A DNA stretch of 64,000 bases from Symbiodinium sp. CCMP2592 (taxonomy: Eukaryota; Sar; Dinophyceae; Suessiales; Symbiodiniaceae), in contig CAJNDT010000001.1 of assembly GCA_905221615.1 (NCBI GenBank), positions 62,001-126,000 of the forward strand, written 5' to 3'. Below are positions 2,791 to 63,999 of the stretch, piece by piece. The stretch's first letter is position 1, and each line of letters opens with the position of its first letter. The translations under genes and the position numbers were made by a program. The notes under the pieces are model-generated. The model was not told where the DNA came from, made no database searches, and saw only the letters and a list, made by a program, of their open reading frames with translations.

Positions 2791-4505
2791 GGTTCAGGGT
2801 GTCGGCGCCCACACTCGGACAAACCAGGCGAGGCATGTGGTTCGGAGTCTGTTGATTGAGACGTCCCTATATGGAGTGTTCAAGACGCCTAGGGTTTAGG
2901 GTTTACGTTGGTAGAACGGTGAGAGGCGGTCATCAGGTCTTGGACCAGTCTTGGAAGGTACATGCCAGCTGAACGTAGCGCTGGTCCAGATTGCTTATTT
3001 AACTAGTTAAGCCAATAAAGCTCGCAAACTGAAGACCCTGAAACCTGTGAACAACCGAAAAGAACTCGTGACCGCCCTCGTGCGACCACACGAATGACGA
3101 AACACTATAAATGACGTACAGAAGCCTTCCAACACCGAATTGTGAACCAAAGCCTCTCCGTTTCAATTCTCTCCGGCTGGAGCTCTATTATCCCTTTTTG
3201 CAGCTGGACTCAAGTCGGCTTGGGGTTTCGAGTGTAGGGCTTAGGGTCAAGTCTAGCCAGACCTCGACATGCAATCATCTTGACTGAGCTCGCTTACCCC
3301 TAAATCCTAGACGCATGGGCTTGCCTTGAAAGCCGCCGCACACAGATACAGTACCAGCCACGCTTGAATCAAACCATCGGGTATATTAGGCTTTGACTGT
3401 CCAGGGGTTTAAAACCTAAAGTTTAGGGCTAAGGGAGCAGGTAGATCAAAATCATTTTGCATCTGGGCTTCCTGAGTCGGCTGGGAGGGGGAATAGTATA
3501 AGGGCGTTGAAAATTTATAGCAGGGCTTTGGGGTGCATTATGAACTACGTATACCATACCATACTATCTGTAATAAAGAACCCCAAGGGATAATGTAGGT
3601 CATATGTGAGGCTTCTATCGCAGTCTTAGTTCAGAGTGCGTCGGGTCCAAAACGTGTGGCAGGCGAAGCGGAGATGATCTACGGTTGAAGCTTCAGGCTC
3701 TAAGGTGCCATTATAACGACAGCTATGTGCACCTGCCTGCCGGTAGCCGGCGTGAAGCCAACATCGGCATCCGGCTCACCTCGAAGAGTTGCCCTTTCAC
3801 AAGGGCTCGTGGCGCGAGACCCTTTTTCTTGCATCAGGACTTGCGCAACCCCACTAGCAAAGCAATTTCTGCTAGAGTATACCGGCAGCCCCGAAATCCC
3901 GAGCTTCGTGTCGCCGTTCTTGAACATGAGGCATTCACAATTCGGCTTTAGGGCTTTGGGAAGCGTAGAGCTCAAGCCAACGAGTTTCCTGGTTTCAGGG
4001 TGCTTCCTCAAGTCCTAAAACCAAAACCCTACAACCCTGAACCACACAGTCTAGACTTCGAACAAGCTGGGCTAGCCTCAAAACCGGAGCTCTCGCAAAC
4101 CATAAACCCCAAACAGCTTCGGAACTGTTTTGTTTTGTTGTGTGCCTGGGAGGATTTGGCTTCGGTTCAATGCAAGGGTCTGAATTAGTATTATCAGCGT
4201 TTCACATGCCCCTATATCAGGGTCCGGGTTAAGCTTTACTAAAGTTTAGTAGCGGAATGTTGATTCAGAATTCAGGTGCAAGCTACGTCAGGGGTCACAT
4301 GGAAGCCACACTCAGTCGGAAGCAAACTGTAGCCTAATAAAATCTTGATCTCCAAATCAAACCAGACTCCAAAAGCTGGACCCCTCCCACAAACCGAAAA
4401 CCTTCCCCCGGCAGAATGCTGTCCTTTTCGCAGAAGCGCTCTGAACCCTCATGAACAGTAAAGCCGTACAGGGCTATACGCGTGTTCCACAGGTTTAGGG
4501 ATTTT

Positions 4506-49840: not shown

Positions 49841-50391
49841 TAAACCCCCAAGCATCTTAGCCGTTGCAGCAAACATCGGAGTCGCCGTCCAAAGACCCCA
49901 CTTAAAGAGAGGGGCCTTGATCGTGAGAGTAGGGTTTGGGGGGCAAAGCATCAGATGCACGGTTTAGGGCTTTAGGGTTTCGACTCGCACACTCGCACTC
50001 TCGCAGGCACGGCTTCTGGGTCCATTTAGGGTTTAGGGTTTACCAAAGCATCCACTCGCAAGGTTGCGCTTAGGGGTTTGGGGTTTAGGACTTGGAGGAT
50101 TCACGGTTGTAGCGTCTCGGGTGGCCGCACCCAGCGCAAGCCGCAGTGCAGCGAATTCAACAGCCGGCATACCCGAGCCCCTTCGTCCAGGCTTAACCCG
50201 ACATCCTTCAGGGTCTTAGGCTTTCGTTATTTGGGGATTCGATGTTTCTCTTTCTTGGGGTTGAGAAGCCTTAGGCATTTGAGCACAAGCAAAACTCTCA
50301 GACCTTCATTTGTCATCTCCGTCCCAGAGGGATCGCCAAAGCCTAAACCCTAATCCTTGTTGACGTCGGACACGCAAGGATCAGCCCGCAC

Positions 50392-50453
50392 TATGGGTAG
50401 TTCTCTAAATGACGGTCCTGTTTGGGGCCCCCAATATATAGTACGACACCCAT
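50392..50453. mobile_element. MITE family A, half element
   Basis: Only the left arm and centre (TATGGGTAGTTCTCTAAATG ... AGTACGACACCCAT) are present; abuts the family J element at 50456. Confidence 0.45.
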
Positions 50454-50455
50454 AC

Positions 50456-50569
50456 ACTTGGCGAACTTCTGAACCCCTGCTGAAACTTAAACGTTTAGCC
50501 TTCTTATTATAGTTCATATAGAAACCCAAAAAGTTAAAGTCTAAAGAGCCAACCAGAAGAACGCCAAGT
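50456..50569. mobile_element. MITE family J, copy 2
   Basis: Arms ACTTGGCGAACTTCTG and complement CAGAAGAACGCCAAGT. Confidence 0.7.
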
Positions 50570-51000
50570 AAAAAAGAGGGACCCTAACTTAGAGAACCCC
50601 CCCCTTCCACATGGCAGCTCCCCGCTCCGTTTAGGCAAGATGGAAAGAGTAAGCGCTTTGGCGCCTGGAGGCATGTTGTCATCCAAAATTAAAGTAGGGT
50701 TTAAGTTTTTGTTTTTTAAGTGTAATGGCCCTTTCTCACTCCGCACGCAGAGTAGGACTTGAGCCCACCCTCCTCAGGCATTAGGGTTTAGGGTTTAGGG
50801 TTTAGGAATTCTAGATTAAAGTAGGGGCCCCAATAATTAGAATCAGGCTTCTTTATAGAATACACCAAAACCGTTAAGCCATGAGCGGTCGCGCTAACCT
50901 TTTACTCAGAGGGCTTGGGCACAATAGTCAGCGGTATATAGTACACAACATGATGACTGTACACGACCATACAAACTCCTACGCAAGCTGCGATGCAAAA

Positions 51001-51015
51001 CTACACCCCCCTCAC
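51001..51015 (-). other. Possible polypurine tract and start of 3' LTR
   Basis: On the minus strand GTGAGGGGG (51015-51006) is followed by TGTAG. A purine tract directly before TG is how copia 3' LTRs begin. The ORF3 stop lies 310 nt upstream. The candidate LTR would run down to about 50881, where a partial MITE starts. The 5' LTR needed to confirm it is outside the window. Confidence 0.3.
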
Positions 51016-51327
51016 CTAAAGGCACGGTCATTGCATTCAAAAACACAGCATACCTTCGCCTGCAGGTGGAAGAGCGCTTCGGCTCGGAGTTCGACGATCG
51101 GCGTGGAGTTGCCTCCCGCGTCATCAGTTGTATCAGCAAAAGTACATGTGACTATCGTGTGCCTCGAGGAAGGGTGCGAAAACTGCATGCAAGCTTTTCT
51201 TCAAATGCAAGACGCTGGTTTCAGCGTGGAGCAAGGACGATAGGAGTTCGCCGCACAGCCACTTGAAAAATATCACAGGCCGGGTGAACATCCCTCTTGC
51301 TCGAAAGAATCAGACTGGGTCGGCTTA

Positions 51328-54300
51328 TCAGTTCCAACGCCATCCGCGATTGCGCCACTCACGCCAGTCCTGGTTGTCCCAGTTCTGGCCGCGCCATGAT
51401 CCCCAGGATGACGAAGACCAATTCTGCCACCAGGATTGATTACCCCAGTCCCAGTCGCGGTTGGTGCGATCGGCGGCCTCGGCGTTAGCCGGGCTTTTGC
51501 CTTTTCCCTTCTCTGCTGCTCGGGCATATGTAGAGCCCTTGCCACCACCTGGCGGATGCTGCTGGGCATACTTCGGCTGGGCAGCACGACTTTGATTGGC
51601 CTTTTTGATGGTTTCATCAACCGTCTCCACCATGATAGGTAGGTCCTTTGCCAAAACGGTCTGTAGGTCCACACCCACTGCAGCGGGATCGTAGTTGAGA
51701 AGATCCACCTTGCCGTGGCCAAAAGTCTGTAGACGGATGCCCCCCTTTTGCCTGGCGATGTTGTGAGCGAAATCTTGGAACGAAAGGATGGCTCCGTACC
51801 AAGTAAATGCTACTGGCGTATCCTCCGGCGTGGACGTTAGTCCCGCTGCGCACAACTTACCGCCAATGCCATCGTCTCCGGTAAAGAAAACGATACGACA
51901 CTCTGGAACCTCGTCCGTGCGGATCTGGTGCGTGGTACTCGCCGCTCTGGAGGATCCAATAGCCAGCATGCGTTGCGATCGAGTGCGGCCAGGGTTCGGA
52001 AGGTAGGCGAAGCAGAGGCAGTCGAGGGCACGGATCGTTCTGCGTGTGTATCCCTCTTTGGCCATTGAAATTGCGTATTCATTGTCATGATTGAACCTCG
52101 CTACGCAATCAGTGTAGCCCTTTTTCACGGCTCTCTGCTTTGCCACTTTGGCTTTCCGAATAACCTCGCCTTCTAAGGAGTTCATGCCACGGCCGGCGAC
52201 ATCTTTCGATGCGCTTTGAAGGCTTGGCCTCACTCCCACTCGTTCAGCGGCATCACCCATCTCCTGAAGCAGAGCTTCACGCCCACGTGCCAACAGCGTC
52301 CGTCTGCCCTGTGCCTTCAATTGACCTGGTCGAACTGGCCCTCCGCATTGAGAGCAAATCCTTTGGCCTTGAAGACACTCAGCTTTGCAGTGGTAGCATT
52401 TGATCTTCTCCAAAAACGCGGCGGATGGCTTAGTCTCACTACCAGCATAAAGTACTGGTTCTGGCCTTCCCACCGGCTCCTGGATTGCTTCAACTGGTGT
52501 ACCCTCAGCATCCAGCGTCACCGTTGTCGCCATTCCGTCACCGATGTACACGGTCCTGATTGGAGGACCCGGCTGTGCGATGATGGTGCCTGGTTCAACA
52601 AGCGGCCTCTCCTCTACGGAGGGCATTTGCTCATCATCAGGAGCTTCATCGTCATCAGCCTTTGCAGGGGCATCGGTGATAGCCAACGATCCCTCAAGCA
52701 CATCAGCGACATCCGGAATGGGCGGTAGGGATGTTTCCTCAGCTGGAAGGGTACCATGTTCTTCATCAATAGGCGGTGCGAAATTGTCCTGAGTCGTCTC
52801 CTCGGGCTCGGGTTCATCAAGAACGATATCGATGCCGGCCTCAGCGTTAGCTGGGCTTTCTCCCTGCTCTTCGTCAGGAGGTACAGCGCCTCCTGCACGG
52901 GACCAGAGTACGACATCGCGTTGAGTATCGTTGATGAACAGGATTGTTGATCCGGGCACTGCTTCGGAACACAATATGCCATCAGATTCCGTAACGAATA
53001 GATCGCAAGCAGCTTCGAGGACCTCCCGAGTGTCAAAGACGATCTCGATTGGTGCGCTTGCACGGAGTCCTGAACGTGCCTTCTGCTCTTCGAGCGGCAG
53101 CGGCGCAAAATAGCAATGCGCCTTCTCAGTACCCCCAAAACCCGGCAACAAACGATCTTCCAGAATCGCATACGCCGCATCATGTGTTGTGCGGTGATAG
53201 AGCCTGGGCGGCGCCTTGTCAATCGGGATCAACGGCCTGCCCTCTCGGGCGGCATTAGCCAGCTCTTCAGAACGCTGCAGCGTAAGATATGCCTTTGCAA
53301 TAGAGGCATTGTCGAGCTGCAGATTGCTGGAGTGGCCTTGCGTACAACCGACGTAGACCGGAAAAGCCGGTTGCCCAATTGCATCGGCAGCACTGTCCAT
53401 TGGTCCGCGAAACATAAGGCGCTGTTTGTTGTCGGTAGCGATCATGTCGAGGAGGCTTCCTAAACCAATGTCGCTTCCAGGTCTGCATCGATTAGCAACC
53501 TCAAGCACTTCCATGGCTAGTACCCATGGCCCGCTCCACGATCGCAGTTTAAATTGATTACCCTTGTTTTCGAAGTTTCCTCTGATAAGTCCAGTGACGA
53601 ATGTAACCATTTTGTGATCACATCTCGGGTAGTGTAGGCCTGGCGTCATGTCTTTTTGGAACACTTCGATGTACTGGTCGGCCTCCTCTTGCGAGGGGCA
53701 TTCGTTCCAGTAATCATACAGGGTAATGCCAGTCATCTCGGCGAAGTCATAGGTGTCGTTCATGAACCTCATTCCGCGCGATCCCTGCACTGCGAGCTTG
53801 GTCAATCGCTGCTTGTCGGCCTCAGCCTTTGCAAGGCGAGCTCTTTTTGCAGCGTGCTCGGTGCCAGAGTCGCCAGACAGAATGCCTCCACCATAAATGG
53901 ATGCGTCGATCGGCATCGGTCGAATATCGCCAGAAGACGAAGCTGCAGTACTCGCCGGGGTAACGGCCTCCACCTTAGGTGGGGCTTTGTTCCATTCCGG
54001 CGAATTGATCTCCTCTTCTGTTGCGAAAACACCGGGTGCGACGCTGATGACATTCTGAATCTTCATCTCCTTGAGGAAGTCGGGGACCTCAGGCGCAGGC
54101 AGTTCGGCGTGACTTTCGTCACGCTTCTCCTCCCAGTATGCGTCGTCCCACGGATCCTCCTCCGTTGGCTCCGCCTTGACCTGCTTGCTTCTCGTCATCC
54201 TCGCAAGAGCCGCTTGCAGGACATGGTTATCGACTGCGTAGCGACCACGGGAATCAAAATAATTTTCAGCAAGCAGTGATTGGAAGGCGGCTTCGCCCAT

Positions 54301-57300
54301 TTTCGCTATCGCTCTGGAGGCGTAGCGCTCGGCGATCTCGATCTGCATGATGTGGGCTAAACCCGAAACCATCTTGCGGCGGGATTCACTGTCCTCGCGG
54401 AAATGGACATTGTCGTTATAGAGCGCCAAATCTCCAAGGAAGGGGTGGATGTCACAGGCGGCGAGTCCTCTACGGACCGCTTCGTCCTTGAATCGCGCAA
54501 TGCATTCATCGAACTGCTTTGGCAACCCGTAGACGAAGCTGCGAACTCCTGTGCAGATCACAATGGACCCCACGTATGGAGAACGGCGCTGCAGGTCTGC
54601 AAGCGCTTCAAGATTTTGGCAAACTCTCCGACAGATCTTTTGCCAATCTCCGCGGGCCTCTATGGGCGATTGATGGTCCCACCACGTCGGGACGCCGGGG
54701 CTGCAAAATATCCCGTATCTGCCGACGATTTCATTCGCCATCCAGACAATCTGCACGTCCACCAGCAACTCTTGGTCGCCAGAGTAGCGCAGAGCCGTCT
54801 GGTCACAGAGGATCTGAGCCCTCTCCCGAAGTTCGGACAATGTTTTGCCCCACAGGGGTTCGTAAATTATCTCCCTGTATTGCAGATAGACCCCCGAGCT
54901 CGCTGCCTTCAAATCCGAGGAAAGGTCTGTCCTCGTTCTCTTGCCAGCAACGAAAACAGTCGTAGAGTCGGAGAGGAGGATGAGCACCCGCTTTCGGCCT
55001 CGATTTTCATCGGGCTTTAGCTGCGACATGCCAGACTGCGTCAATGCTGCCACTCGGTTGAGCCCTGGATATCGATCCGTTTCAAAGCAGTTGTGAGCAG
55101 CCACTTGCACCGGCATGTACTGAAAAAGTGCTCGCAACTCTCCTTCGTCAATCGACTCTTGGAAGCCTATCGACTCGTGACTGATGACGGCCGCCCAAAG
55201 CTGGCGGCCCCAAAAATCGGCCAACTGCTCTTCGTAGGTCGCCATCGCTCTTCTACTCTCAGCTGCTACCACGGGACTAGGACCCGGCCTCAGCGTTAGC
55301 TGGGCTTTAGTTGTACAGTAAAGCGATGACAAAGCTGCGCATGCCAGTCCTTCATGTACCTTAGGTCCATCATTATCCTTAGTGGTATGCACTTGCCAAT
55401 CAGCATGCAATGCCGAAACCTTGGTTTTCGATGTCCTTAGTCGTCCACAGTCCTGGGTAGCTTCGAGCAGCAGCCGCTTCAATCGAAAAGACGATGCAAA
55501 GATCAGCGACCCGCTCTTGTGTTTCTCAAGACCGAAATCGTGTGCCAACTTAACAACAGCAGGCATACACCACATCTCGTTGTTAGCTGAAGCTTCCAAC
55601 AGCAGGTGGGGCCTAAGACGTTTGGTTAATCGGCATAACGACATCAACGATTTCAGACATTTGTTCCATTCGTGGTCCGGCAGCGATGCAAAGTAGAGAA
55701 TCGGTTTAGTGCTTCCCCCCTCGTCGCAGAGGGCACGAAGATTGTTAGCGATTTTTGACATTGCTTTCGGATTCATAGTTTCAAGGTTGTTCGGGACAGG
55801 GACAACACGACAGGAACCATTTCCTGACAAGGTGGCTTCACTAGCGTTCCCAAAATCAAGCAAAACCCTGCAAAAGTCCATCGGCCTCGGCGCGAGCCGG
55901 GCGTCTGCAGGAGCGGCCGCCGCAGACCCGAGCCTAAAGCCGTGTTTGTTGAGGGTTTCAAGGTCAGTTGTGGAAAGCTTGGGAAAACCACGAGAGGTAT
56001 ACGCGGTGATAGAAAAACGTTTTCCGGTATAAGGCAACACGCAGTGTTTCTTGGCTGGGTCAAAGACAAGAGGTTTGCAATGGGTGTCATGCACATCCCC
56101 TTTGATGGAACGTCCTTGAGCGTCTTTCTGGAACTGCGCCTTAGTATCCGAAACAGTCTGATCTTCAACCCACAATCCACCTCCTTTGTGGTCACCAAAG
56201 CTAACCATCAGGTTCTTAGAACCCTTTAAGTTATGGGAATCAGCATGAACCTTTGCCATGTTGTCCTTGCTAATCACCACTGAGGTCCATGTGAAACCTG
56301 AGTCGGGAGAATGAGCTTTCACGAACTCATTCAAGTACCTGGCAACTGCGGGATACCTAGTGGTGCTTCTGGTAACACCTTGCATTCCACCGTGTGTCCA
56401 AGTTCCGTACACTTGATAATAGCCTTGTTTCTTTGATGCAATGCGAGGTCGCTTGGATTTCTTAGCTGTATGATTTGATGCAATCTCTTCACACAACCTT
56501 TCCAAAGCATCACAGCCGTACTCCTTCAGGCGGGAAAGTTCTGAAGCAACCATCTCAACCTCCTGAATGGCAGCAGCTGCTTTAGCACGTTTGCCTTGAA
56601 CCTCGTGTGGTGTAGGAGAGCGGCCTGGCTTTTCAGCCGGCTTCGCATTCTGCGCATCAGGTACATGATTAATGAGCCTAAGCGCGTGTTCCCACTTACC
56701 ACGTTCAGCAAACGGTTTCGTGAAGATGTCTGCGACCTGTTCTTTGGTATCAACATTGATCATGTTGAAATGGCCCTTTTCGAACTGTTGCTTCATCCAT
56801 GCAAACGAAAGTCGTTGCGTCCTATCGGTGTGACGAAGCTTTTCACTGTCACCTTTCGCGATGATGGTGATTGTAGCTTGGTTATCTTCTAAGAACTGAA
56901 CCTGAAACTTTTCAGAAAGATGAACATCCAAGCCATTTATATCCGCGACAGAGCGTCCTTCATGACTGAGTTCACCATACCTGATTTCATCAAGCTCCGG
57001 GTCAATCCTTGCAACGATTGTTTCCGTGACTTTAGGTGATTCCGCCGGCGGCCTGGTCTTTCGACCGGCTGCATTAGCGGTAACCTCTCCCCAAAGGTAA
57101 CACCACAAGCTTAAGCTAGGCAGGCCTTGTGCTCTGATGCCGTGATTCGCTGAAACTACTTCACTTTCGGTGCTAGACGTCGTGATGCTGGTCTGTTTCT
57201 TTGAAAAAGCATTCAACGGGTAGTAAGTGTTGGGCCCAACCAAGAACAGTGCGCATCCTGATGTGGATTTGGAATCAAATTCTCCTGCCCAATCGGCGTC

Positions 57301-57705
57301 ACAGAAGAGCCACAACTTACAGTCCGAAATCTTATCGCCAATAAAACCCTGCATCGTGATGTCCAAGCTCGAATTAATGTAGCAGATCAGCCGATGTAAA
57401 CCGACATCGCAGTCCCTTGACCACTTCGTGACCCTAGAAGCAAGCGACTGGGTACACCGAAGTAAGTCCCACCTTGCCATTCTTGCTGCAAACAACACCT
57501 TCATGAGGACCCGACTGGCAATCGGTTGCAACCTCCCCTGGGGTTCGTTGCCTTCCACAGGTTTGGCTACTCTGTTCTCATGAAACGGCGTAGCTGCAAA
57601 CTTCAGGGAATCACGTGAAACTTTAGCTAATTCACAGTACTTGTCGACACAGGAGACCAGGAAGTCCTTCATGTCATACGTCACAACGTTGACAGGCTTA
57701 GTCAT
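51328..57705 (-). CDS. ORF3: RNase H plus very long accessory polyprotein
   Basis: 2,125 codons from ATG at 57705, overlapping the end of ORF2 by 8 nt (ATGACTAA), +1 frame. Residues 1-345 complete Pol: the RT-RNase H connection, then RNase H with DADWAGEFDSKSTSG (D138 region), SSTESE (178-182), EDNQA and VADIFTKPF. The remaining 1,780 residues have no counterpart in a standard copia element. In order they are: a 2OG-Fe(II) dioxygenase-like module (about 425-575); two unassigned stretches (576-900); an SGNH-like module (905-1125); an acidic linker; a Tpt1/KptA-like module (1360-1605); a Pro/Glu-rich acidic linker; a zinc ribbon C1770, C1773, C1784, C1787; a basic helical region; and a Trp/Arg/Asn-rich tail (2083-2125). 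Nine of the GGCC hairpins lie within this ORF. The accessory part occupies the env-like position. Pol domains are certain; module assignments are from motif reading. Confidence 0.9.
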   Translation of the reverse strand: MTKPVNVVTYDMKDFLVSCVDKYCELAKVSRDSLKFAATPFHENRVAKPVEGNEPQGRLQPIASRVLMKVLFAARMARWDLLRCTQSLASRVTKWSRDCDVGLHRLICYINSSLDITMQGFIGDKISDCKLWLFCDADWAGEFDSKSTSGCALFLVGPNTYYPLNAFSKKQTSITTSSTESEVVSANHGIRAQGLPSLSLWCYLWGEVTANAAGRKTRPPAESPKVTETIVARIDPELDEIRYGELSHEGRSVADINGLDVHLSEKFQVQFLEDNQATITIIAKGDSEKLRHTDRTQRLSFAWMKQQFEKGHFNMINVDTKEQVADIFTKPFAERGKWEHALRLINHVPDAQNAKPAEKPGRSPTPHEVQGKRAKAAAAIQEVEMVASELSRLKEYGCDALERLCEEIASNHTAKKSKRPRIASKKQGYYQVYGTWTHGGMQGVTRSTTRYPAVARYLNEFVKAHSPDSGFTWTSVVISKDNMAKVHADSHNLKGSKNLMVSFGDHKGGGLWVEDQTVSDTKAQFQKDAQGRSIKGDVHDTHCKPLVFDPAKKHCVLPYTGKRFSITAYTSRGFPKLSTTDLETLNKHGFRLGSAAAAPADARLAPRPMDFCRVLLDFGNASEATLSGNGSCRVVPVPNNLETMNPKAMSKIANNLRALCDEGGSTKPILYFASLPDHEWNKCLKSLMSLCRLTKRLRPHLLLEASANNEMWCMPAVVKLAHDFGLEKHKSGSLIFASSFRLKRLLLEATQDCGRLRTSKTKVSALHADWQVHTTKDNDGPKVHEGLACAALSSLYCTTKAQLTLRPGPSPVVAAESRRAMATYEEQLADFWGRQLWAAVISHESIGFQESIDEGELRALFQYMPVQVAAHNCFETDRYPGLNRVAALTQSGMSQLKPDENRGRKRVLILLSDSTTVFVAGKRTRTDLSSDLKAASSGVYLQYREIIYEPLWGKTLSELRERAQILCDQTALRYSGDQELLVDVQIVWMANEIVGRYGIFCSPGVPTWWDHQSPIEARGDWQKICRRVCQNLEALADLQRRSPYVGSIVICTGVRSFVYGLPKQFDECIARFKDEAVRRGLAACDIHPFLGDLALYNDNVHFREDSESRRKMVSGLAHIMQIEIAERYASRAIAKMGEAAFQSLLAENYFDSRGRYAVDNHVLQAALARMTRSKQVKAEPTEEDPWDDAYWEEKRDESHAELPAPEVPDFLKEMKIQNVISVAPGVFATEEEINSPEWNKAPPKVEAVTPASTAASSSGDIRPMPIDASIYGGGILSGDSGTEHAAKRARLAKAEADKQRLTKLAVQGSRGMRFMNDTYDFAEMTGITLYDYWNECPSQEEADQYIEVFQKDMTPGLHYPRCDHKMVTFVTGLIRGNFENKGNQFKLRSWSGPWVLAMEVLEVANRCRPGSDIGLGSLLDMIATDNKQRLMFRGPMDSAADAIGQPAFPVYVGCTQGHSSNLQLDNASIAKAYLTLQRSEELANAAREGRPLIPIDKAPPRLYHRTTHDAAYAILEDRLLPGFGGTEKAHCYFAPLPLEEQKARSGLRASAPIEIVFDTREVLEAACDLFVTESDGILCSEAVPGSTILFINDTQRDVVLWSRAGGAVPPDEEQGESPANAEAGIDIVLDEPEPEETTQDNFAPPIDEEHGTLPAEETSLPPIPDVADVLEGSLAITDAPAKADDDEAPDDEQMPSVEERPLVEPGTIIAQPGPPIRTVYIGDGMATTVTLDAEGTPVEAIQEPVGRPEPVLYAGSETKPSAAFLEKIKCYHCKAECLQGQRICSQCGGPVRPGQLKAQGRRTLLARGREALLQEMGDAAERVGVRPSLQSASKDVAGRGMNSLEGEVIRKAKVAKQRAVKKGYTDCVARFNHDNEYAISMAKEGYTRRTIRALDCLCFAYLPNPGRTRSQRMLAIGSSRAASTTHQIRTDEVPECRIVFFTGDDGIGGKLCAAGLTSTPEDTPVAFTWYGAILSFQDFAHNIARQKGGIRLQTFGHGKVDLLNYDPAAVGVDLQTVLAKDLPIMVETVDETIKKANQSRAAQPKYAQQHPPGGGKGSTYARAAEKGKGKSPANAEAADRTNRDWDWGNQSWWQNWSSSSWGSWRGQNWDNQDWREWRNRGWRWN
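52330..52413 (-). other. Zinc ribbon in ORF3
   Basis: ORF3 residues 1765-1792 contain C-x2-C-x10-C-x2-C (C1770, C1773, C1784, C1787) in a short segment between an acidic linker and a basic helical region. The spacing fits a small zinc ribbon, presumably for nucleic-acid or protein contacts. No specific family is claimed. Confidence 0.6.
52891..53625 (-). other. Tpt1/KptA-like RNA 2'-phosphotransferase module in ORF3
   Basis: ORF3 residues about 1360-1605. The N-terminal half (FVTGLIRGNFENKG ... LLDMIATDNKQRLMF) resembles the winged-helix lobe of Tpt1 with its typical basic R before G/H and the 'IV..D.K.RF' segment. The C-terminal half has CTQGHSSN (H1458; family motif QGHS) and RLYHRTTHDAAYAIL (H1504; family motif LYHGT...IL). 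It continues as an ADP-ribosyltransferase-type beta sheet to ILFINDT. Tpt1 removes an RNA 2'-phosphate using NAD+. The LYHGT glycine is Arg here and the usual HVHLS strand is AHCYFAP, so activity is uncertain. It could instead be a diverged ADP-ribosylating domain. Confidence 0.6.
54331..54993 (-). other. SGNH-hydrolase-like module in ORF3
   Basis: ORF3 residues about 905-1125. A hydrophobic strand leads into LLSDST (S912-D913-S914), resembling the GDS nucleophile block. It is followed by WMANEIVGRYG (N991, resembling the block III Asn), a strand SIVICTGV, and NDNVHFRE with D1098 and H1101 spaced as in the D-x-x-H block V of SGNH/GDSL esterases. Length and block order suit the family. The Gly of GDS is replaced by Ser and the fold is not proven. 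Esterase-like modules are known in ORF1 of some LINE elements, so the class is plausible in a retroelement. No substrate can be assigned. Confidence 0.45.
55981..56433 (-). other. TET/JBP-like 2-oxoglutarate/Fe(II) dioxygenase module in ORF3
   Basis: ORF3 residues about 425-575. Visible features match the double-stranded beta-helix dioxygenases: the metal pair H487-x-D489 in AKVHADSHNLKG, then SFGDHKGGGLWVED (a GG-Lxx turn after a conserved SFG), the distal metal ligand H554 in KKHCVLPYTGKRFSITAYT, and R563-x-S565 as the 2-oxoglutarate carboxylate clamp. The order and wording (H-x-D, N, fGdf-GG-L, H-x-v-x-p-x-x-G-x-R-x-S) recall the TET/JBP branch, which oxidises the methyl group of thymine or 5-methylcytosine. 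All catalytic positions are present, so it could be active. The assignment to TET/JBP rather than another branch is inferred. Confidence 0.65.
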
Positions 57706-57789
57706 AGCGGGGAGGTTCCTTGATGATCGTATCAGTGCTCTTAAATCTAGACTGCTTAGCTTCGCGCTTAGCGTCTGATTTGCTTCTCA
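57698..57789 (-). other. ORF2/ORF3 overlap (RT to RNase H frame change)
   Basis: ORF2 ends TAT GAC TAA and ORF3 begins ATG ACT AAG, sharing ATGACTAA. The ORF3 frame is open upstream to a TGA at 57789-57787, so the frames overlap by about 28 codons, in the +1 sense. Either stop-restart on the overlapping ATG, a +1/-2 frameshift, or a recent inactivating indel would explain it. A GGCC hairpin (57792-57811) ends just upstream of the overlap. Confidence 0.7.
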
Positions 57790-60700
57790 TCGGCCTGCCC
57801 TTTCGGGCGGCAGCAGCGAGCTTAAAGTCGTCTGCCGTCGTTGGCATGATAGAGAAGATTGTTTTGCCCGTCCACCACTCGTTTCGCCTAGCAGGGCCCC
57901 CCTGATTGGAATCATCCTGTATCTGATCTCCATTCTCAAACTCTGTTATGCGTTCAGTTCCCAGAGTGGGAAACTGTCTCATGTCGTCTTCACTTGGTAC
58001 GTACAAACGCTTTCTGGGGTACCTGTGATGTCTGATTGCAAGCGCAGCATCCGGATCAACCTCCCAATAATCTTCTGTTCTACTCGGCCTGGAGTTTCCT
58101 CCGGCTGCTGGTGCTGCAATTTTCTTGTCGAAGACATAAGCAAAAGGATGTGCGCTGCGGTCAAGCATAACACCGTTCTGCTCTCGATGATTGCAACCAA
58201 AGTATCTCCCAAAAGGTTCCGAAGGATCCATATCCAAAACCTTCCCAATCCCCTCCCATCCCTTAGCAAGATTGTCCTTTGGTCCTGCCATTTTGAAATC
58301 GTCGACGTAGACGACGAGGAGGAGATCTAATTCCGGATGGTAAAAGATACTTTGCCATATATCTGGAAGAACCGGGATCCACCCTATGCTCTTCAACTGA
58401 GCAGTGCAGTGTCGTTCCCAGATGCCGCCGCTGTCAGGATGTCCATACAAAGCAAGTCTGAGAGGACAAACTGGGTCGCGAAAATTGCGCCACTCGGGCG
58501 GTCGACGATTCTTGGGAAGTCGAACCCAAGTCGCAATCCCTTTGAACAAAGCTTGAGTATACGCTTGTCGAGCATCAGCTTGCTGTTTTGCATAGCCTGG
58601 TTGGCTTCCGAACACATCGATGATTTTACCCGCTTCCATACTTGCAGGGCTAGAACCCAGTTCGGCGAAGATCGCGTGATCCGCATTTTCATCTCGAACC
58701 TGGTTCCCCTGGAACACAGAGCGTCCCTTGTAGTACTTAAGCGGATTGCCATCCTGCAACTCGGAACCCTTAAGGCTGCAAATCTCGAACACGTTCCCGA
58801 AGTGAGCCTTTTCGCCTTTTGCCTTGGTTTCAGACAAGACGTCGTCGTACTCACGAACTTGTTTCTCAAGCCAACACCCTTTATCAAGAAGTTTCTTCCA
58901 TTCTTTGTCCATAGCAGCCTGAGCCTCAGGGTTTCTGGCAACGTCATTCTGATTGATAAGCTTGGCAACCACAGCGAAAAGATCCTCGCAAGTTTCCTCT
59001 AGCTTATCCAGAAATAAACCGTGCAACCTCTCCCCATCCTCAGGCGTCCTCGGTCGATGAGGTTCTCGATGTCCAAGGAGAACAGGCATAGCGGGAGCTT
59101 CTTTCTCTCGTTCTTCTTTTAATCTAGCTTCCTCCCGCGCAACCTTCTTCTCCCATCGTTCGATTTCCTCTTTTCGTTGTTGTGCGGAATACATGTGCCA
59201 GAATTCAGACGGGACATCAGGGGGTCTTTTGGAGCCTTTCTTGTTCCTCACGAGTCTAACCCCATCCCAATTGTAACCAGCAGGAACCGGTCTACCATCA
59301 GGATATTTCGTGGGATCAAACAGGTCACCTTTGGAACTAGATGATGGCTCACTGGGCTTAGGCGCGGCCTCACCTTTCGGTGGGCTTTGATCGTCATCGG
59401 GTTCGGGTTCGGATAAGCCGATTTCATCAAGAAGTTCGCCTGCCTCACGAAGTCCCCGTTCCTTTTCTTCATCTGAAGCATGAATGTTCTGATCATCCAA
59501 CAGTGGAACCTCGTGTGCCTCGCGATCCTTGATCCTTCCCGATTGAAGTGGGAACTCAAAACTTCCCTCAATCAACTCAACGCGCTTAGCCCTGATGACC
59601 TTGAGGTTTCCGTCCTCAATGGCAAACTGTGCGTCTTTCACGGGTGCAATCAAATACTCCTTCTTCCAAACAAACCCTGGTTGGATATGGTATCCCAGGA
59701 AGATCCCTTCAACCCCAGTTGACGAAAACTTGGAAGTCTCCGGAACATTCTGTTTAGGGTTATGCCAATACAAGACCTTAGCTCCGAAAGGAACAATCAA
59801 TCCCGCAAAGGACTCCCCAAAGCGTGCCTCCCATGGGATTTCACCAGTATCCACTCGTTTTGTGAGATTGAGCGCAATGGAGTGGTGCTGAGCTGCTAAA
59901 GGCCAAAACCGTTCTGGAAGACCGGCTTGCTCCAAGTTCGAGCGCGTACCCTCTAGTACGGTGCGGATTTCCCGTTCGATGACGGCCTTAGTTTCATCCA
60001 CGTACTCTCTAGAGGTGTTGTGCCTACATCGGAGTTCCTTCACAGCTGCTCCCAACTCCGGCGCGTTGTCAGAGTAAATAACCCCAACTTCGTCTTGCGT
60101 ACCGAAAAAGTGCAGAAGGTCCTCATGCACTTGTTCCGATGATTTTGTTGCGCTAGGATACACATACCTGAATTGCGAAAACACATCTTTGATAACAAGC
60201 GCCACCCTCTCATCCTGAAATCCAAAGTCCCTCAGATCTCTTGTCACGAGATGATCAATGGTAACATGATCCCCATACTTTTCACTGTGTATGGTCGAAG
60301 ATCCCCCCTTTCTTCGAGCTTGGGGAGATAGCATCTTCGCCTTTTGGCACACTTTGCAGAATGGGTTCTTAGGACGATGGCAGAATTGATGATGGATGCT
60401 TTCGGCCTCGGCGCGAAGCCGGGCTTCTTGCGAGATTTCCCTTCCCTCATCTTCTTCCTTGTCACTATCGGGCTCGATTAAGGGGTCGTCTTCGGGTCTT
60501 TTGAAAGCAGTAATCGACAGAATTGGCGATCCATCAATCTTTTGATTTTTAACCCTTAGACTTCTGATGTCAACAGAATCCTCAATCTTGCTCCAAGCAG
60601 AGTCCTTGTAGATCCAAGTGGTCCTTAGCACGAACCTTGGATGACGAGGTGCAGGTACTCGCAAAGCCTTTGGCCGATGACCAATAATGATCTTTGATGC

Positions 60701-60858
60701 GGCAATTTCACTGCTAGTGATCCAACCTGGCTTGGCTAAATCTTTAGGCTTGATTGCAATTGGTGGTGCAGCATTGATTGCTTCTTCTATCTCGGAGTCG
60801 CTATGAACGACTCTTTCATCCCCGGCCGGTCCTCTCGGACGGCTTTCTACTGGAAACC
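57698..60858 (-). CDS. ORF2: integrase and reverse transcriptase (Pol part 1)
   Basis: The frame is open from 60889 and lies -1 relative to ORF1. There is no good ATG near its start; the first in-frame near-start is TTG at 60664, which supports expression by -1 frameshifting. Residues below are numbered from that TTG (988 residues). An HHCC-type zinc-binding segment ends in CKVC (C103, C106). The integrase core has D137 (TIDHLV), D199 (YSDNAPE) and E230 (VIEREIRT). A copia-type region after the core includes GIFLGYHIQPG. A charged Pro/Glu-rich linker spans 380-530. Reverse transcriptase covers about 555-840, with D697 (ADARQAYTQA) and the catalytic YVDD at 786-789. The frame ends PPRYD-TAA before RNase H, which is encoded by the next ORF. 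The usual copia Pol is one continuous frame, so this split is unusual. Confidence 0.9.
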
Positions 60859-60859
60859 C
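60824..60859 (-). promoter_or_regulatory. Predicted -1 ribosomal frameshift signal (Gag-Pro to Pol)
   Basis: The minus strand reads G GGT TTC in the ORF1 frame at 60859-60853, an exact X-XXY-YYZ slippery heptamer. CAG and the ORF1 stop TAG follow, so the spacer is 9 nt (CAGTAGAAA). A hairpin then begins at 60843: GCC GTCC GAGA GGAC C GGCC. After a -1 slip the next frame runs directly into ORF2. The overlap of the two frames is only about 14 codons, so this is the natural place for the shift. Heptamer, spacer and stem-loop are all seen; function is inferred from the known architecture of -1 sites. Confidence 0.7.
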
Positions 60860-63800
60860 GAAGACTCGTCCTCCGCAGGTGCCGCCAGTTCAACCTTGAC
60901 TGTACCGGCGTTAAACACCTGAGTTCCAGCAGATTTCTGGGAATCATCAGCACTTGCTGGGCTCGCTACCGAGTCATCATTTGAGATCACTGGGACTCTA
61001 CCCTTCATCTTACACTTGATGACTTTACCATCGGGAGCTATGAAGTATGGAACCTTGCCCGCAGGCCAATGGAAATCATATCCATCGTCCATGCATCTTC
61101 TCCCAACAGAACAAACCGGTGGCGTGCTTTCCAGTAGATAGCACTCAATGTTTTGCTTCAGTTCAGGCATCGGGATGTTGGTTGACTTGATTCCCTGAAC
61201 TGGACCATTAGCTGTAATCAAGTTGACCGGCCTACTAGCGTTTTCGATGGGAGCCTCTGGATAGTAGATAGAGTGATCGTGCCTACTGATCAGATCTTCT
61301 TCACTGCCAGTATCGGCGAGGAATTCTAATCCCGCATTAAAGCTAGAGCATGCTGTTCTTTCCACGCTAGAACACAGCTCGCACTTCAACACTGCAACTG
61401 GGATCTCACCCTCTTCGCAGTCATCTGTGCACTCGTACTCACAGTGGCTTTCAATCCCATTGAGCATACAGGACATGATCCTGGCAAGCTCGTTCGCTGT
61501 TCTTATGGCCGTGCTTAGGTCCTGAACTGGAGGCTTTGGGCAGCTTTCAGCATCCAAGTAACAAACTTCGAAAGTTCGCGGTTTGGTCCTATGCTTCTTA
61601 CCCTTACCATCCAATGGAATCTCCCGAATGCTTGGCTTCTCCTTGAACCTTAATTTCTTGAACGTTCCTGAAGCATCACCCTTAACGCCTTGCCCATTGG
61701 GCACAGCTGCCAGCGCATACGAAATGCAACAAGCTGCCGTGCGTCCGCCAGACTTTTCCTTGCTCTTGGACCTGCCCCTGTGTTTCTTTTCCTTCTTTGC
61801 TTTAGGATCCGGGGTCGGGCTCCTAGGCTTTTCATCGTTCTTCGCAGGGGCGGCCTGCTCGGTAGGAGCGGCGTCAGTTGGATTGGGCTTATCTTGATGC
61901 AGGAACCTACAGTCTTTGCCTTTGTTGCACTTGCCTTTCTTCCAAAAGGTGCAAATCGCGTTGATCTTCTTCTGAGGCGTTCGATGAGGACTTGGGGATC
62001 TTGACTTTGGTTTGTGGAGAAACTTACACTTGTCGCCTCTTGTGCATTTTCCTTTCTGGAAGTCGTAACAAACCTGTTGTGTTTTGGGACTCTGAGATCT
62101 AGGCGGTGTTCGTTGGCTCGATCCTTTGCTGCTTGTTCTGGATTTTGAGCTACTTCGGGACATGCTTCTTCCACGGCCTCCTCGTGAAGAGGGGCGACGT
62201 TCAGATCCGTACGCTGGGGCCCCGTATCTATCGCCATGCGACTTAGCGATGCGGTCACGGTTCTTACGCATCCGTTCTCTAGTTAGATGCTCCCTAATGG
62301 CATTGACGAGGAATTCATACGTGTGTACGGGGTTTCCTTCCTTTGCCCTGTCGTACAGCTGAAGATCGTACTTGATGTGGTGGGATTTCCGAATTTCCCT
62401 CAGCAAAATGTCCCTCAAGGTAACTTCATCCGGAACATGACTCATTCCAGCAATCACCGACTCGAAGTTGTAAAGGAAGGTAGCCAAATCGTCCCCAACC
62501 AACTTCACTTTTAGAAGGTCTTCTACGCTATAGAGGCTTCCGACTTCTTCATTAGTCTTAAAGTGTTGATGAAACATCCACAACACTTGTCTTCCCCTGA
62601 CGGCACGTCCTCCTGTGGCCTCTGTTTCTTTGAAGTTTAGGACTTGCCTTGAAATCTCTCCTCTAGCGACTCTGGTAAGTGCAGCCAACAACTTCGTGTC
62701 CAATGTTAAGAATTTCCCAGTGTCATGTAAGGACTTGAGGGTAGCCTCTTTATCATATACTTCCTGCACCCAGCGAAATGCCTCATCCGGGCGATCGCTC
62801 GCAGCCCGCACAATCTCGCGGACCGAGATCCGCCACGATCGGTAGGTCTCTGGATTAGGGTAATCGGGAAGCTTGATGCTTTCGGCTTCTTTCACCTTTG
62901 GTTTGCCCTCTTCATCTTCGGTCTTAGGGGTAAGCAAGCGTGCTGCCCTAATCAATGCCTCAGCTCCGAAATCAACATGTGGAACCCCGTCTGGGTCAAC
63001 AGTCGCCGGCTTACCCGCTTGGGCAGCTTTAGGGGACTTTTCCTTTTGTGGCTCTCTGTTCTCAAACCCAGGTGGTACAGAAGTTCCTTGCGGAGGTTCC
63101 TGAGCTTGCGGCGTTCTTCCGAAGATGTCCTTCATGTTCTCGGGAATCTCAAATGGATTTGAGAACGGGACAGCAGGATTAGGTCCTGGCTTCGGCGTGG
63201 CATATTGTTTGCCCGCTTCGTCCGCATTGGCTTCCATTCTTAAGGCTCGTTCTGCGGCAGCCAGTTCATCCTGCAGTCTGTCGTTTTGTGCACTCATTTC
63301 AGCGATTTCAGTAATGAAACGCCGTTCCATACTCGCTTCGGTTTCTTCAAGAACTTGTTTGAATCGGATTCCAAGAAAATCAAGATGTTGTGCTTTGTTG
63401 CGTTCGCTCTCAGCAATCAGAGTGGTTCTGAGCTTAGCGATTTCCGACTGATGTCGTTGTTGGAAAATTGATTCCAGAATGTTCATTTCATTCCTGCATG
63501 TTGCAACTTCGTTCAACAAAAACTTTTCCCTTTGGGATGCGTTGAACTCAAATTCCGCAAACTGTGCTTCGCATTCTGCCATCTTCACCTCATGAAGGCG
63601 CTCGGCCTGTTCAGCCATGCCAGCCATTCTCACAAGATTATCATGCGATTGTTGGTTCAGAATGCTTGCGTGTCTTCTTTCAGCATCTGCCTCCGTTCGC
63701 TCTATTGCCATTCTTTGTTGTTCGGCTGTTTCACCCTGGTTCACAACATTGTACAAGGTATACTGCACGTTTGAGATGTCGACCGTTGGATTTGAGACAA

Positions 63801-63999
63801 ATGGAGATAGGGTAGGACCCACTGGACCGAAGATCCTATCAAGTGCTTGGGATCCTGAGCTCGGTGCCGTAGGGCCCGCGCCAGCTGCTGCGAGTTGTTC
63901 ATCAAGCAGTCGAGCTCTTGTTTCGTCGTCCATCTCGTCCGATGATACTTCGGTTGTTTCTCCCTTTTCAGTAGTGAGCAGGGAGGGCGAAGTACTCAT
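60847..63999 (-). CDS. ORF1: Gag with tandem CCCH zinc fingers, plus aspartic protease
   Basis: 1,050 codons from ATG (MSTSPSLL) at the window edge; an earlier start outside the window is possible. Residues about 90-265 are a charged, Gln/Glu-rich predicted coiled coil. Residues about 375-575 are helical and occupy the capsid position. Residues 600-640 are Ser/Arg-rich. Two CCCH fingers (C-x7-C-x5-C-x3-H) lie at 644-662 and 683-701, where copia Gag normally has one CCHC knuckle, and are presumed to bind element RNA. The aspartic protease active site is LADTGSEEDLI with D896. The C-terminus is Ser/Asp-rich and ends FQ-TAG. The slippery heptamer GGGTTTC (60859-60853) lies one codon before the stop, so the product is probably made both as Gag-Pro and as a Gag-Pro-Pol fusion. 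Motifs are seen directly; the capsid assignment is inferred from position. Confidence 0.88.
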   Translation of the reverse strand: MSTSPSLLTTEKGETTEVSSDEMDDETRARLLDEQLAAAGAGPTAPSSGSQALDRIFGPVGPTLSPFVSNPTVDISNVQYTLYNVVNQGETAEQQRMAIERTEADAERRHASILNQQSHDNLVRMAGMAEQAERLHEVKMAECEAQFAEFEFNASQREKFLLNEVATCRNEMNILESIFQQRHQSEIAKLRTTLIAESERNKAQHLDFLGIRFKQVLEETEASMERRFITEIAEMSAQNDRLQDELAAAERALRMEANADEAGKQYATPKPGPNPAVPFSNPFEIPENMKDIFGRTPQAQEPPQGTSVPPGFENREPQKEKSPKAAQAGKPATVDPDGVPHVDFGAEALIRAARLLTPKTEDEEGKPKVKEAESIKLPDYPNPETYRSWRISVREIVRAASDRPDEAFRWVQEVYDKEATLKSLHDTGKFLTLDTKLLAALTRVARGEISRQVLNFKETEATGGRAVRGRQVLWMFHQHFKTNEEVGSLYSVEDLLKVKLVGDDLATFLYNFESVIAGMSHVPDEVTLRDILLREIRKSHHIKYDLQLYDRAKEGNPVHTYEFLVNAIREHLTRERMRKNRDRIAKSHGDRYGAPAYGSERRPSSRGGRGRSMSRSSSKSRTSSKGSSQRTPPRSQSPKTQQVCYDFQKGKCTRGDKCKFLHKPKSRSPSPHRTPQKKINAICTFWKKGKCNKGKDCRFLHQDKPNPTDAAPTEQAAPAKNDEKPRSPTPDPKAKKEKKHRGRSKSKEKSGGRTAACCISYALAAVPNGQGVKGDASGTFKKLRFKEKPSIREIPLDGKGKKHRTKPRTFEVCYLDAESCPKPPVQDLSTAIRTANELARIMSCMLNGIESHCEYECTDDCEEGEIPVAVLKCELCSSVERTACSSFNAGLEFLADTGSEEDLISRHDHSIYYPEAPIENASRPVNLITANGPVQGIKSTNIPMPELKQNIECYLLESTPPVCSVGRRCMDDGYDFHWPAGKVPYFIAPDGKVIKCKMKGRVPVISNDDSVASPASADDSQKSAGTQVFNAGTVKVELAAPAEDESSGFQ

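Follow-up and report, generated by a model that had tools for sequence, protein, structure and literature searches.

Conserved bulged hairpins along the sense-strand RNA of copia-type LTR retrotransposons in the dinoflagellate Symbiodinium sp. CCMP2592

In the iron-responsive element, the loop is conserved and a bulge lies a set distance beneath it, whereas the stem is free to vary in sequence. In MS2 RNA, a loop of the form (x)xYA together with a bulged A is recognised at multiple dispersed sites, and the known strong site is also a translational repressor; in satellite tobacco necrosis virus (STNV), packaging hairpins are dispersed across coding and non-coding RNA (as outlined in PMC6281560 and PMC4836477). 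Retroviral packaging signals (Psi) lie close to the 5' end, and recognition of the element's own RNA is explained only in part even for Ty1 (as outlined in PMC8396678). Here we describe short bulged hairpins spread along a copia-type long terminal repeat (LTR) retrotransposon of the dinoflagellate Symbiodinium sp. CCMP2592. The element lies in a stretch of 64,000 nucleotides (hereafter the window; positions 62,001 to 126,000 of contig CAJNDT010000001.1, assembly GCA_905221615.1), on the minus strand from window position 50854 to 216 nt beyond the window end. A sequence-only reading of this DNA had reported 16 hairpins with 11 different, perfectly paired stems within the three open reading frames (ORFs) of the element, and had proposed that either selection acts on an RNA structure or a tiny mobile hairpin spreads inside coding sequence.

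The hairpin family proved to be real and larger than that count. The sense strand of the element contained 18 copies of the pattern GCC-N4-loop(4-5)-N4'-bulge-GGCC. All of them were on the window minus strand between 51475 and 62195, and they occurred in each of the three ORFs and in every codon phase, so that the common orientation and the varying frame noted earlier stood. The upper stem was paired at 4/4 positions in 18/18 copies, as had been claimed; the number of different upper stems was 13 rather than 11. When the foot was relaxed, four more hairpins with a GCG/CGC foot were obtained (54480, 52214, 51846, and 51119), which were also conserved between copies. The full set therefore comprised 22 sense-strand hairpins with 15 different upper stems. 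Each had 7 bp with a GC foot and one bulged base on the 3' side, 4 bp under a loop of 4-5 nt. We denote this geometry, read on the sense RNA, as 4+3 (upper 4 bp and lower 3 bp) and the geometry with upper 5 and lower 2 bp as 5+2. The loops were GAAA (7), TAAC (4), GAGA (2), GCAA (2), GTAGA (2), and five singletons, in agreement with the earlier impression of frequent GNRA-like loops, and the bulged base was A in 19 hairpins, T in two, and C in one.

No antisense copy was present within the ORFs, and no antisense hairpin of the GC-foot type in the whole window element. The absence of the family from the other 51 kb was confirmed: the GCC-foot motif did not occur in window 1-51000, nor the 4+3 type in 1-50800, on either strand. 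Shuffled-codon controls, which the sequence-only reading had named as a test able to overturn it, did not do so: 1000 synonymous-codon shuffles gave a mean of 0.068 hairpins (maximum 2) and 1000 codon-order shuffles a mean of 0.012 (maximum 2) vs. 18 observed. Two further sites, both in ORF3, came close, with 2 or 3 of the 4 pairs. In a geometry scan without sequence constraint, 4+3 ranked first in the window element (27 vs. 3.5 in shuffled sequence). A 23rd candidate with a GCA foot (56818) was excluded because it was not conserved between copies, and was taken as chance. Near window 53837 on the minus strand, GCCTTGCAAAGGCTGAGGCC resembles a decayed hairpin (2 of 4 upper pairs) amid intact ones. 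A GCG-foot hairpin with a 6-nt loop was also seen at 63302-63322 (minus strand) in the otherwise empty 5' part of gag; the sole covering copy differs in one stem base and in the loop.

Conservation was followed in 17 other copies or fragments of the element (L009-L025), 67-99% identical by segment, which were aligned to the window element. These copies share ancestry, and all of them were selected via a match to the hairpin pattern of sites 55305 and 52856; conservation at these two sites is therefore biased. Within the 22 hairpins, substitutions amounted to 8/3568 in stems, 0/255 in the bulge, and 19/1083 in loops. Outside the hairpins, codon positions 1, 2, and 3 were changed in 958/42325, 587/42376, and 3987/42408 cases (2.3, 1.4, and 9.4%, respectively), and flanks within 30 nt in 647/15974 (counted with 23 hairpins). 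With the search-pattern sites left out, the values were 7/3142 for stems and 0/225 for the bulge. In sense RNA, five of the eight stem changes led to G.U pairs, two made up one compensated pair (A-T to T-A), one was a mismatch, and none gave A.C. Altered GNRA tetraloops stayed GNRA in 7/7 cases, five of these at one site (53699), and one TAAC loop became TGAC. Among 254 wholly covered hairpins, 236 were identical, 14 substituted, and four carried an insertion or deletion. Stems much more conserved than any codon position support selection on RNA structure, the first of the two possibilities raised earlier, and the stem replacements between families described below agree with it. The accompanying claim that RNA and not peptide is conserved held for the stems in comparison with codon positions. 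Some hairpin peptides recur (AARKGRP, SPANAEA).

Related hairpins were found in two further element families of the same genome. L026 (C368:44500-54400) and L027, two copies of a family at 70-71% protein identity, contained 17 hairpins of the same build each, with their own stems and loops and with GCC (13), GCG (2), and GCT (2) feet. In the pol frame, 6/16 L026 hairpins had a window hairpin no more than one residue away (mean expected by chance 0.24; 0/20000 random placements reached 6). This comparison used a protein alignment with segments at 56, 58, and 29% identity and took perfect hairpins only, broken ones counting as unshared. At the six shared sites, 10/42 pairs differed on both sides, and one site (55902) had an identical stem. 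The gag-pol hairpin also differed between the window element and L026 by paired changes; it stands outside the six-site count because the protein alignment does not reach it. Unshared hairpins made up 10/16 in L026 and 13/19 in ORF2 and ORF3 of the window element (gag-pol pair included), so that sites also turn over between families. Of the unshared ones, 7/10 in L026 and 8/13 in the window element were aligned in full or lacked no more than one residue, the remainder being partly or wholly gapped. Pairing in homologous elements, the other point on which the sequence-only reading had staked itself, was mostly kept among copies (236/254 identical), although sites turn over between families. Hairpins with a 2-nt bulge on the 3' side (lower 3, upper 4) were in excess in L026 as well (11 vs. 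2.5 shuffled).

The third family, represented by L029 and L030 (P0093 clade), had 11 hairpins each, with the same GC foot and total length and with the bulge one pair lower (5+2). Shuffles of these gave 0.10-0.17 hairpins and no antisense copy was present; L029 and L030 are 99% identical and are therefore regarded as one observation. The L029 loops, judged by eye, were GCAA or GCGA in 10/11 hairpins and TCGC in one. Four of the 11 L029 hairpins fell on window sites with an offset of 0 residues, the gag-pol site included, and the hairpin at the 57811 site fits both 4+3 and 5+2 geometry. The geometry scan ranked 4+3 first in L026 (20 vs. 1.8) and 5+2 first in L029 (15 vs. 2.0). In all three families, one hairpin was located 57-209 nt beyond the pol stop. 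L029 and L030 had been fetched as a negative control for the notion that the P0093 clade lacks hairpins and that hairpins mark one 29-row clade of the reverse transcriptase (RT) tree; this notion, for which only 4+3 had been tested, was rejected by their 11 hairpins of the 5+2 type. At the protein level, back-translation gave 42 vs. 10.3 shuffled over 73 proteins and 239 vs. 18.4 over 65, in a permissive test which tells that a peptide could be hairpin-encoded, not that it is. A GNRA-loop test on 28 chosen proteins yielded a clear excess in, e.g., P0074, P0093, P0108, P0112, P0116, P0117, and P0020. The excess at the protein level in deeper clades is suggestive only. A genome search for the P0085 family did not recover it, the best matches being the window family.

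Individual sites are given below in the direction of the element RNA, all on the window minus strand and written as 5' foot, upper stem, loop, upper stem, bulge, and 3' foot; fractions denote identical hairpins among covering copies. ORF1 (gag) contained GCC.CCTC.TTCAC.GAGG.A.GGC (62176-62195; 1/1) and GCC.GCTC.CTACC.GAGC.A.GGC (61853-61872; 1/3, with a loop-only change in 2/3). In ORF2, we found GCC.CGGC.TTCGC.GCCG.A.GGC (60405-60424; 9/9 wholly covered copies), GCC.CACC.GAAA.GGTG.A.GGC (59367-59385; 12/12), GCC.GGAG.GAAA.CTCC.A.GGC (58087-58105; 12/12), and GCC.GCCC.GAAA.GGGC.A.GGC (57793-57811; 14/14). L026 has a site within 1 amino acid of 58105 (CGGG.GTGA.CCCG), and the 57811 site is common to L026 (GCT.GCCT.CCAA.AGGC.A.AGC) and L029. 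Directly after the 59385 site, copy L025 (C1256:61000-69260) carries an insertion with an extra hairpin-like sequence in which one foot base is changed.

Several ORF3 hairpins were identical in every covering copy: GCC.CGGC.TCGC.GCCG.A.GGC (55884-55902; 15/15; same site and same stem in L026), GCC.CGAT.GAAA.ATCG.A.GGC (54997-55015; 16/16; site common to L026, with CGGC.GATA.GCCG, and L029), GCC.GCCC.GAGA.GGGC.A.GGC (53235-53253; 15/15; GCCT.ATCA.AGGC at the same site of L026), GCC.CTCC.GTAGA.GGAG.A.GGC (52605-52624; 12/12), GCG.CATC.GAAA.GATG.T.CGC (52196-52214; GCG foot; 12/12 wholly covered), and GCC.CGGC.TAAC.GCCG.A.GGC (51476-51494; 8/8). At GCC.GGTC.GAAA.GACC.A.GGC (57051-57069; 11/14; site common to L026, with AACC.ATCA.GGTT, and L029), the hairpin of L018 is broken by a 4-nt insertion, L025 has a G.U foot pair and a GCAA loop, and L014 shows an alignment gap at the first base, though a separate scan finds its hairpin intact. 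GCC.GGCT.GAAA.AGCC.A.GGC (56623-56641; 12/14) has one GAGA loop and, in L025, a deletion through one arm. Of the two sites whose pattern served to find the copies, GCC.CAGC.TAAC.GCTG.A.GGC at 55287-55305 (13/14) shows one G.U foot pair and the same sequence at 52838-52856 (14/15) one loop change. One loop change was also seen in GCG.GTCC.GTAGA.GGAC.T.CGC (54461-54480; GCG foot; 16/17). In GCC.CCAC.CTAAG.GTGG.A.GGC (53966-53985; 15/16), the exception is L025, whose loop is new and whose stem shows one compensated and one G.U pair. GCC.CCTC.GCAA.GAGG.A.GGC (53681-53699; 11/16) has another GNRA loop (GAGA, GGAA, or GAAA) in the five other copies, among them L025, with a foot mismatch. GCG.GGAC.TAAC.GTCC.A.CGC (51828-51846; GCG foot; 8/9) has a gap at the last base in L025. 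The last hairpin, GCG.GGAG.GCAA.CTCC.A.CGC (51101-51119; GCG foot), is non-coding, being placed downstream of the last stop codon and ahead of the 3' LTR; it is identical in 2/3 copies, and the third has a G.U pair.

The hairpin at the gag-pol junction, GCC.GTCC.GAGA.GGAC.C.GGC (60825-60843), was identical in 7/7 copies and has an equivalent in L026 and L029. It begins 9 nt past the heptamer GGGTTTC (60853-60859, minus strand), which stands in the X XXY YYZ register of ORF1 and is a candidate -1 frameshift site into ORF2; ORF1 ends with ...TCG GGT TTC CAG TAG, and ORF2 is in the -1 frame. L026 and L029 have GGGTTTT at the same place, again followed by 9 nt and a hairpin. As judged from sequence, the layout of a -1 frameshift signal (in-register heptamer, short spacer, structure, and overlapping ORFs) is present at the junction hairpin only. 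Of the other 21 window hairpins, two follow a heptamer at a distance of 7-10 nt (counted irrespective of register), neither at an ORF overlap. In all three families, the junction hairpin is placed where a frameshift stimulator belongs, and frameshifting is predicted to take place there. In L029, the junction hairpin is identical to that at the 57811 site except for one base; this would fit a copying origin from the junction, though one case proves nothing.

The hairpins were spaced more evenly than at random. The closest neighbours were 232 nt apart in the window element (n = 22, P 5e-6) and 218 nt in L026 (n = 17, P 1e-3), and the spread of spacing was below random (P 0.0012 and 0.021, respectively), all P values being for whole sets. 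On average, there was one hairpin per 500-600 nt; the 3' part of the window element was denser, with one per about 380 nt. On these comparisons, the hairpins are sense-strand RNA elements of the retrotransposon genomic RNA (mostly sense strand) with their shape under selection. Even spacing, shape-preserving selection, site sharing with stem replacement, and family-specific geometry all emerge from the sequence analysis.

The genome (1.098 Gb, 5383 contigs) was searched with two loop classes. Pattern CGGCCTNNNNTTTCNNNNGGC gave 573 matches vs. 39 for the reversed control, and GCCNNNNTTANNNNTGGCC gave 517 vs. 326. Among the 100 listed of the 573, 92 were perfectly paired, all with six stems known from the window element, and eight were not, which is about the chance number; among the 100 listed of the 517, 67 were paired with three stems known from L026 and 33 were not (both by eye). 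The listed matches were judged by stem and not one by one for the surrounding element. There was no sign of host genes carrying the hairpin among these listed matches (100 of 573 and 100 of 517) for the two loop classes searched. DNA and protein searches of viral contigs gave no matches. That no named class fits, as had been remarked from the sequence, also agreed with our searches: no Rfam family was found, the one match (sR39, E 0.22, 20.2 bits vs. a gathering score of 50) being taken as chance, and such hairpins were not found described in the literature searched (titles and abstract openings, with subscription journals mostly outside). In the accessible part of a 2024 review of dinoflagellate genomics (PMC11453091), "hairpin", "palindrom", and "stem-loop" had no occurrences.

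By its sequence, the host element is a Ty1/copia LTR retrotransposon, with LTRs, gag, and integrase ahead of a copia-type RT. It is more than 13 kb long. The 3' LTR (50854-51005, minus strand; 152 bp) is identical to the 5' LTR at 64065-64216 (window numbering, beyond the window end). ORF1 (60847-63999, minus strand) corresponds to gag with two CCCH zinc fingers and also has a DTGSEED motif, which we take to be that of the protease. ORF2 (57698-60889, minus strand) corresponds to integrase and copia-type RT; its Pfam matches were both under the cut-offs (rve, E 0.17; RVT_2, E 0.013), and a few of its 73 homologues bear names, e.g., GIP and Reverse transcriptase Ty1/copia-type. ORF3 (51328-57786, minus strand) is the remainder of the pol reading frame. 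A frame change at 57698-57786 divides the window pol into ORF2 and ORF3; many other copies have a single open frame of about 3187 codons. At ORF3 residues 1420-1607, there is a match to Tpt1/KptA (RNA 2'-phosphotransferase) over the Pfam cut-off, also present in P0074, an unusual passenger in the pol frame of an LTR retrotransposon. In a search of the genome with the RT piece, 125 of 2115 candidate places were scored; 71/125 were at 95-100% and 54/125 at 70-71% protein identity (by eye). L010 and L011 (C58 12300-29000) are two element copies arranged as an inverted pair, with the junction at the equivalent of window position ~58,030. Runs of TTTAGGG, the plant-type telomere repeat, flank the element on both sides (window 50025-50804; L028 about 3370-3600).

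As to function, we tentatively favour, with somewhat less than even confidence, putative dispersed binding sites for Gag or another element protein, serving packaging and gag-pol control. A bulge and loop held constant while the stem sequence is free to vary, in copies all along the RNA, would have the look of a protein-recognition site. The likeliest reader would be an RNA-binding protein encoded by the element itself, foremost Gag with its two zinc fingers. With many copies bound at once, the long RNA would be singled out for uptake into particles, as happens through dispersed packaging signals in some RNA viruses; the hairpin after the slippery heptamer would additionally help or regulate the -1 frameshift. 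A bulge 4 or 5 bp from the loop is what we would expect if site and reader coevolve, with families telling their own RNA apart. A wider picture, possible but more doubtful, is that of a dinoflagellate copia lineage with an RNA barcode: about 10-22 even bulged hairpins within the protein code would be read by each family's Gag. In this picture, the set may have started from the junction site, and the distance of the bulge from the loop (4 or 5 bp) would serve as a family tag, able to switch without any move of the sites.

A number of observations speak against the explanation favoured here. L025, the most diverged copy, accounts for seven of the eight stem changes, which therefore represent few events; it keeps eight perfect hairpins, and hairpin 57069 of L018 is broken by the insertion. 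The mean pair probability in a context of +-60 nt was below 0.5 for 4/22 window and 1/17 L026 hairpins, and the folding energy had no clear strand preference (sense -222.5 vs. antisense -216.2). L026 has two antisense hairpins of the type vs. 17 sense ones and shows a weaker excess in other bulge geometries, and in the 28-protein test no clear excess was detected in P0104, P0113, P0115, P0101, P0110, and P0038. The first 2 kb of the RNA have no hairpin of the 3-5 nt loop type, the one 6-nt-loop candidate (63322) being altered in its one covering copy. Psi is near the 5' end, whereas here the first hairpin is 2.0 kb from the start of the 5' LTR and the 3' half is densest. In addition, the MS2 bulge is on the 5' side, while that of the window hairpins is on the 3' side.

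The same structural evidence would apply if the reader were a host RNA-binding protein acting in export, stability, localisation, or silencing, with its sites either exploited by the element or used by the host for recognition. Dinoflagellates rely on post-transcriptional control (as outlined in PMC12787238), which adds to the appeal of such a reader. We nevertheless consider it rather unlikely: the paired genome matches listed (92 of 100 of 573 and 67 of 100 of 517, for two loop classes) carry stems known from the elements, and the geometry differs between families of one genome, which a single host reader would not need. A translational device, in which hairpins slow or shift ribosomes and, e.g., pace the folding of the polyprotein (~3000 residues), would account for the hairpin 9 nt past GGGTTT[C/T] in three families and for the many hairpins in variable protein stretches. 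It is improbable given that, among the other 21 hairpins, two are preceded by a heptamer at 7-10 nt, neither at an ORF overlap, and that every family has a hairpin beyond the last stop and all three codon phases are used; a 7-bp hairpin is also weak for ribosome pausing. Similarly improbable is a role in RNA-RNA contact or reverse transcription (dimerisation, template switching, or pause sites for strand transfer), with which the even spacing along the RNA and the restriction largely to one strand are compatible; the commonest loops (GNRA, TAAC, and TTA) are not self-complementary, and the single bulge and its fixed place are left unexplained.

A mobile hairpin inserting into coding sequence, like Rickettsia palindromic elements or repetitive extragenic palindromic (REP) sequences, was the second possibility raised by the sequence-only reading, and we regard it as very improbable. 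Many similar copies do exist, the peptide at 58105 or 57069 is missing in some distant families, for 3/10 unshared L026 hairpins no residue of the window element is aligned (in one case because the alignment stops short), and two L029 hairpins are nearly the same sequence. However, the stems differ between sites (13 different upper ones among 18 copies), a hairpin persists at homologous sites even where its stem has been replaced, and 7/10 of the L026 hairpins without a window counterpart can be aligned with the loss of no more than one residue. Orientation also argues against mobile hairpin DNA, with no antisense copy in the window element and L029 and the 2 vs. 17 of L026; the other 51 kb of the window have none, and no other paired stems appeared among the genome matches listed. 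A coding or compositional artefact, by which peptides or codon bias yield hairpins, could draw on the recurrence of AARKGRP and SPANAEA, and has a negligible probability. Synonymous shuffles retain the peptides and give 0.068 hairpins, the shuffles thereby rejecting chance or codon artefact; three codon phases are used, one copy is non-coding, and stems change less than any codon position.

The data show strong, measurable RNA-level selection acting inside coding sequence in abundant eukaryotic retrotransposons; stems have been replaced naturally, and families of one genome do not all have the same geometry. If Gag is the reader, they would explain, directly and in a way open to test, by what means an LTR retrotransposon of > 13 kb picks out its own RNA, and would provide a set of natural RNA-protein pairs of different specificity. 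These elements would then be the first LTR retrotransposons with MS2-like dispersed packaging or operator hairpins.

Among known systems, Rickettsia palindromic elements and REP sequences resemble the hairpins in being inverted repeats tolerated in coding sequence, and coding palindromes are described in nematomorph mitochondrial DNA (PMC6649704). Those are inserted units or long inverted repeats, whereas the present hairpins are 19-20 nt long, mostly on one strand, and have stems replaced at homologous sites. With iron-responsive elements they share the fixed bulge-loop distance and the free stem; iron-responsive elements, in contrast, are single or few, lie in untranslated regions, and have a loop of 6 nt, with C as the bulged base on the 5' side. 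Signals for -1 frameshifting are matched by the junction hairpin only, while hairpins of the same build elsewhere are spread over the whole RNA without a slippery site. Retroviral and Ty1 packaging signals are similar in that an RNA structure is presumed to be read by Gag. The likeness to MS2 and STNV lies in many short hairpins (22, 17, and 11 in three families) with a shared loop and bulge motif and free stem sequence and, in the window element family, RNA-level conservation above the protein level. The differences are that the carrier is an LTR retrotransposon, that the hairpins have a fixed 7 bp with a GC foot and even spacing, and that binding of a particle protein is only putative. The analogy is functional, and we do not claim membership in the MS2 or STNV type. 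The parallel with MS2 extends to a second use of one site: there the strong site doubles as a repressor, and here one hairpin sits at the frameshift site.

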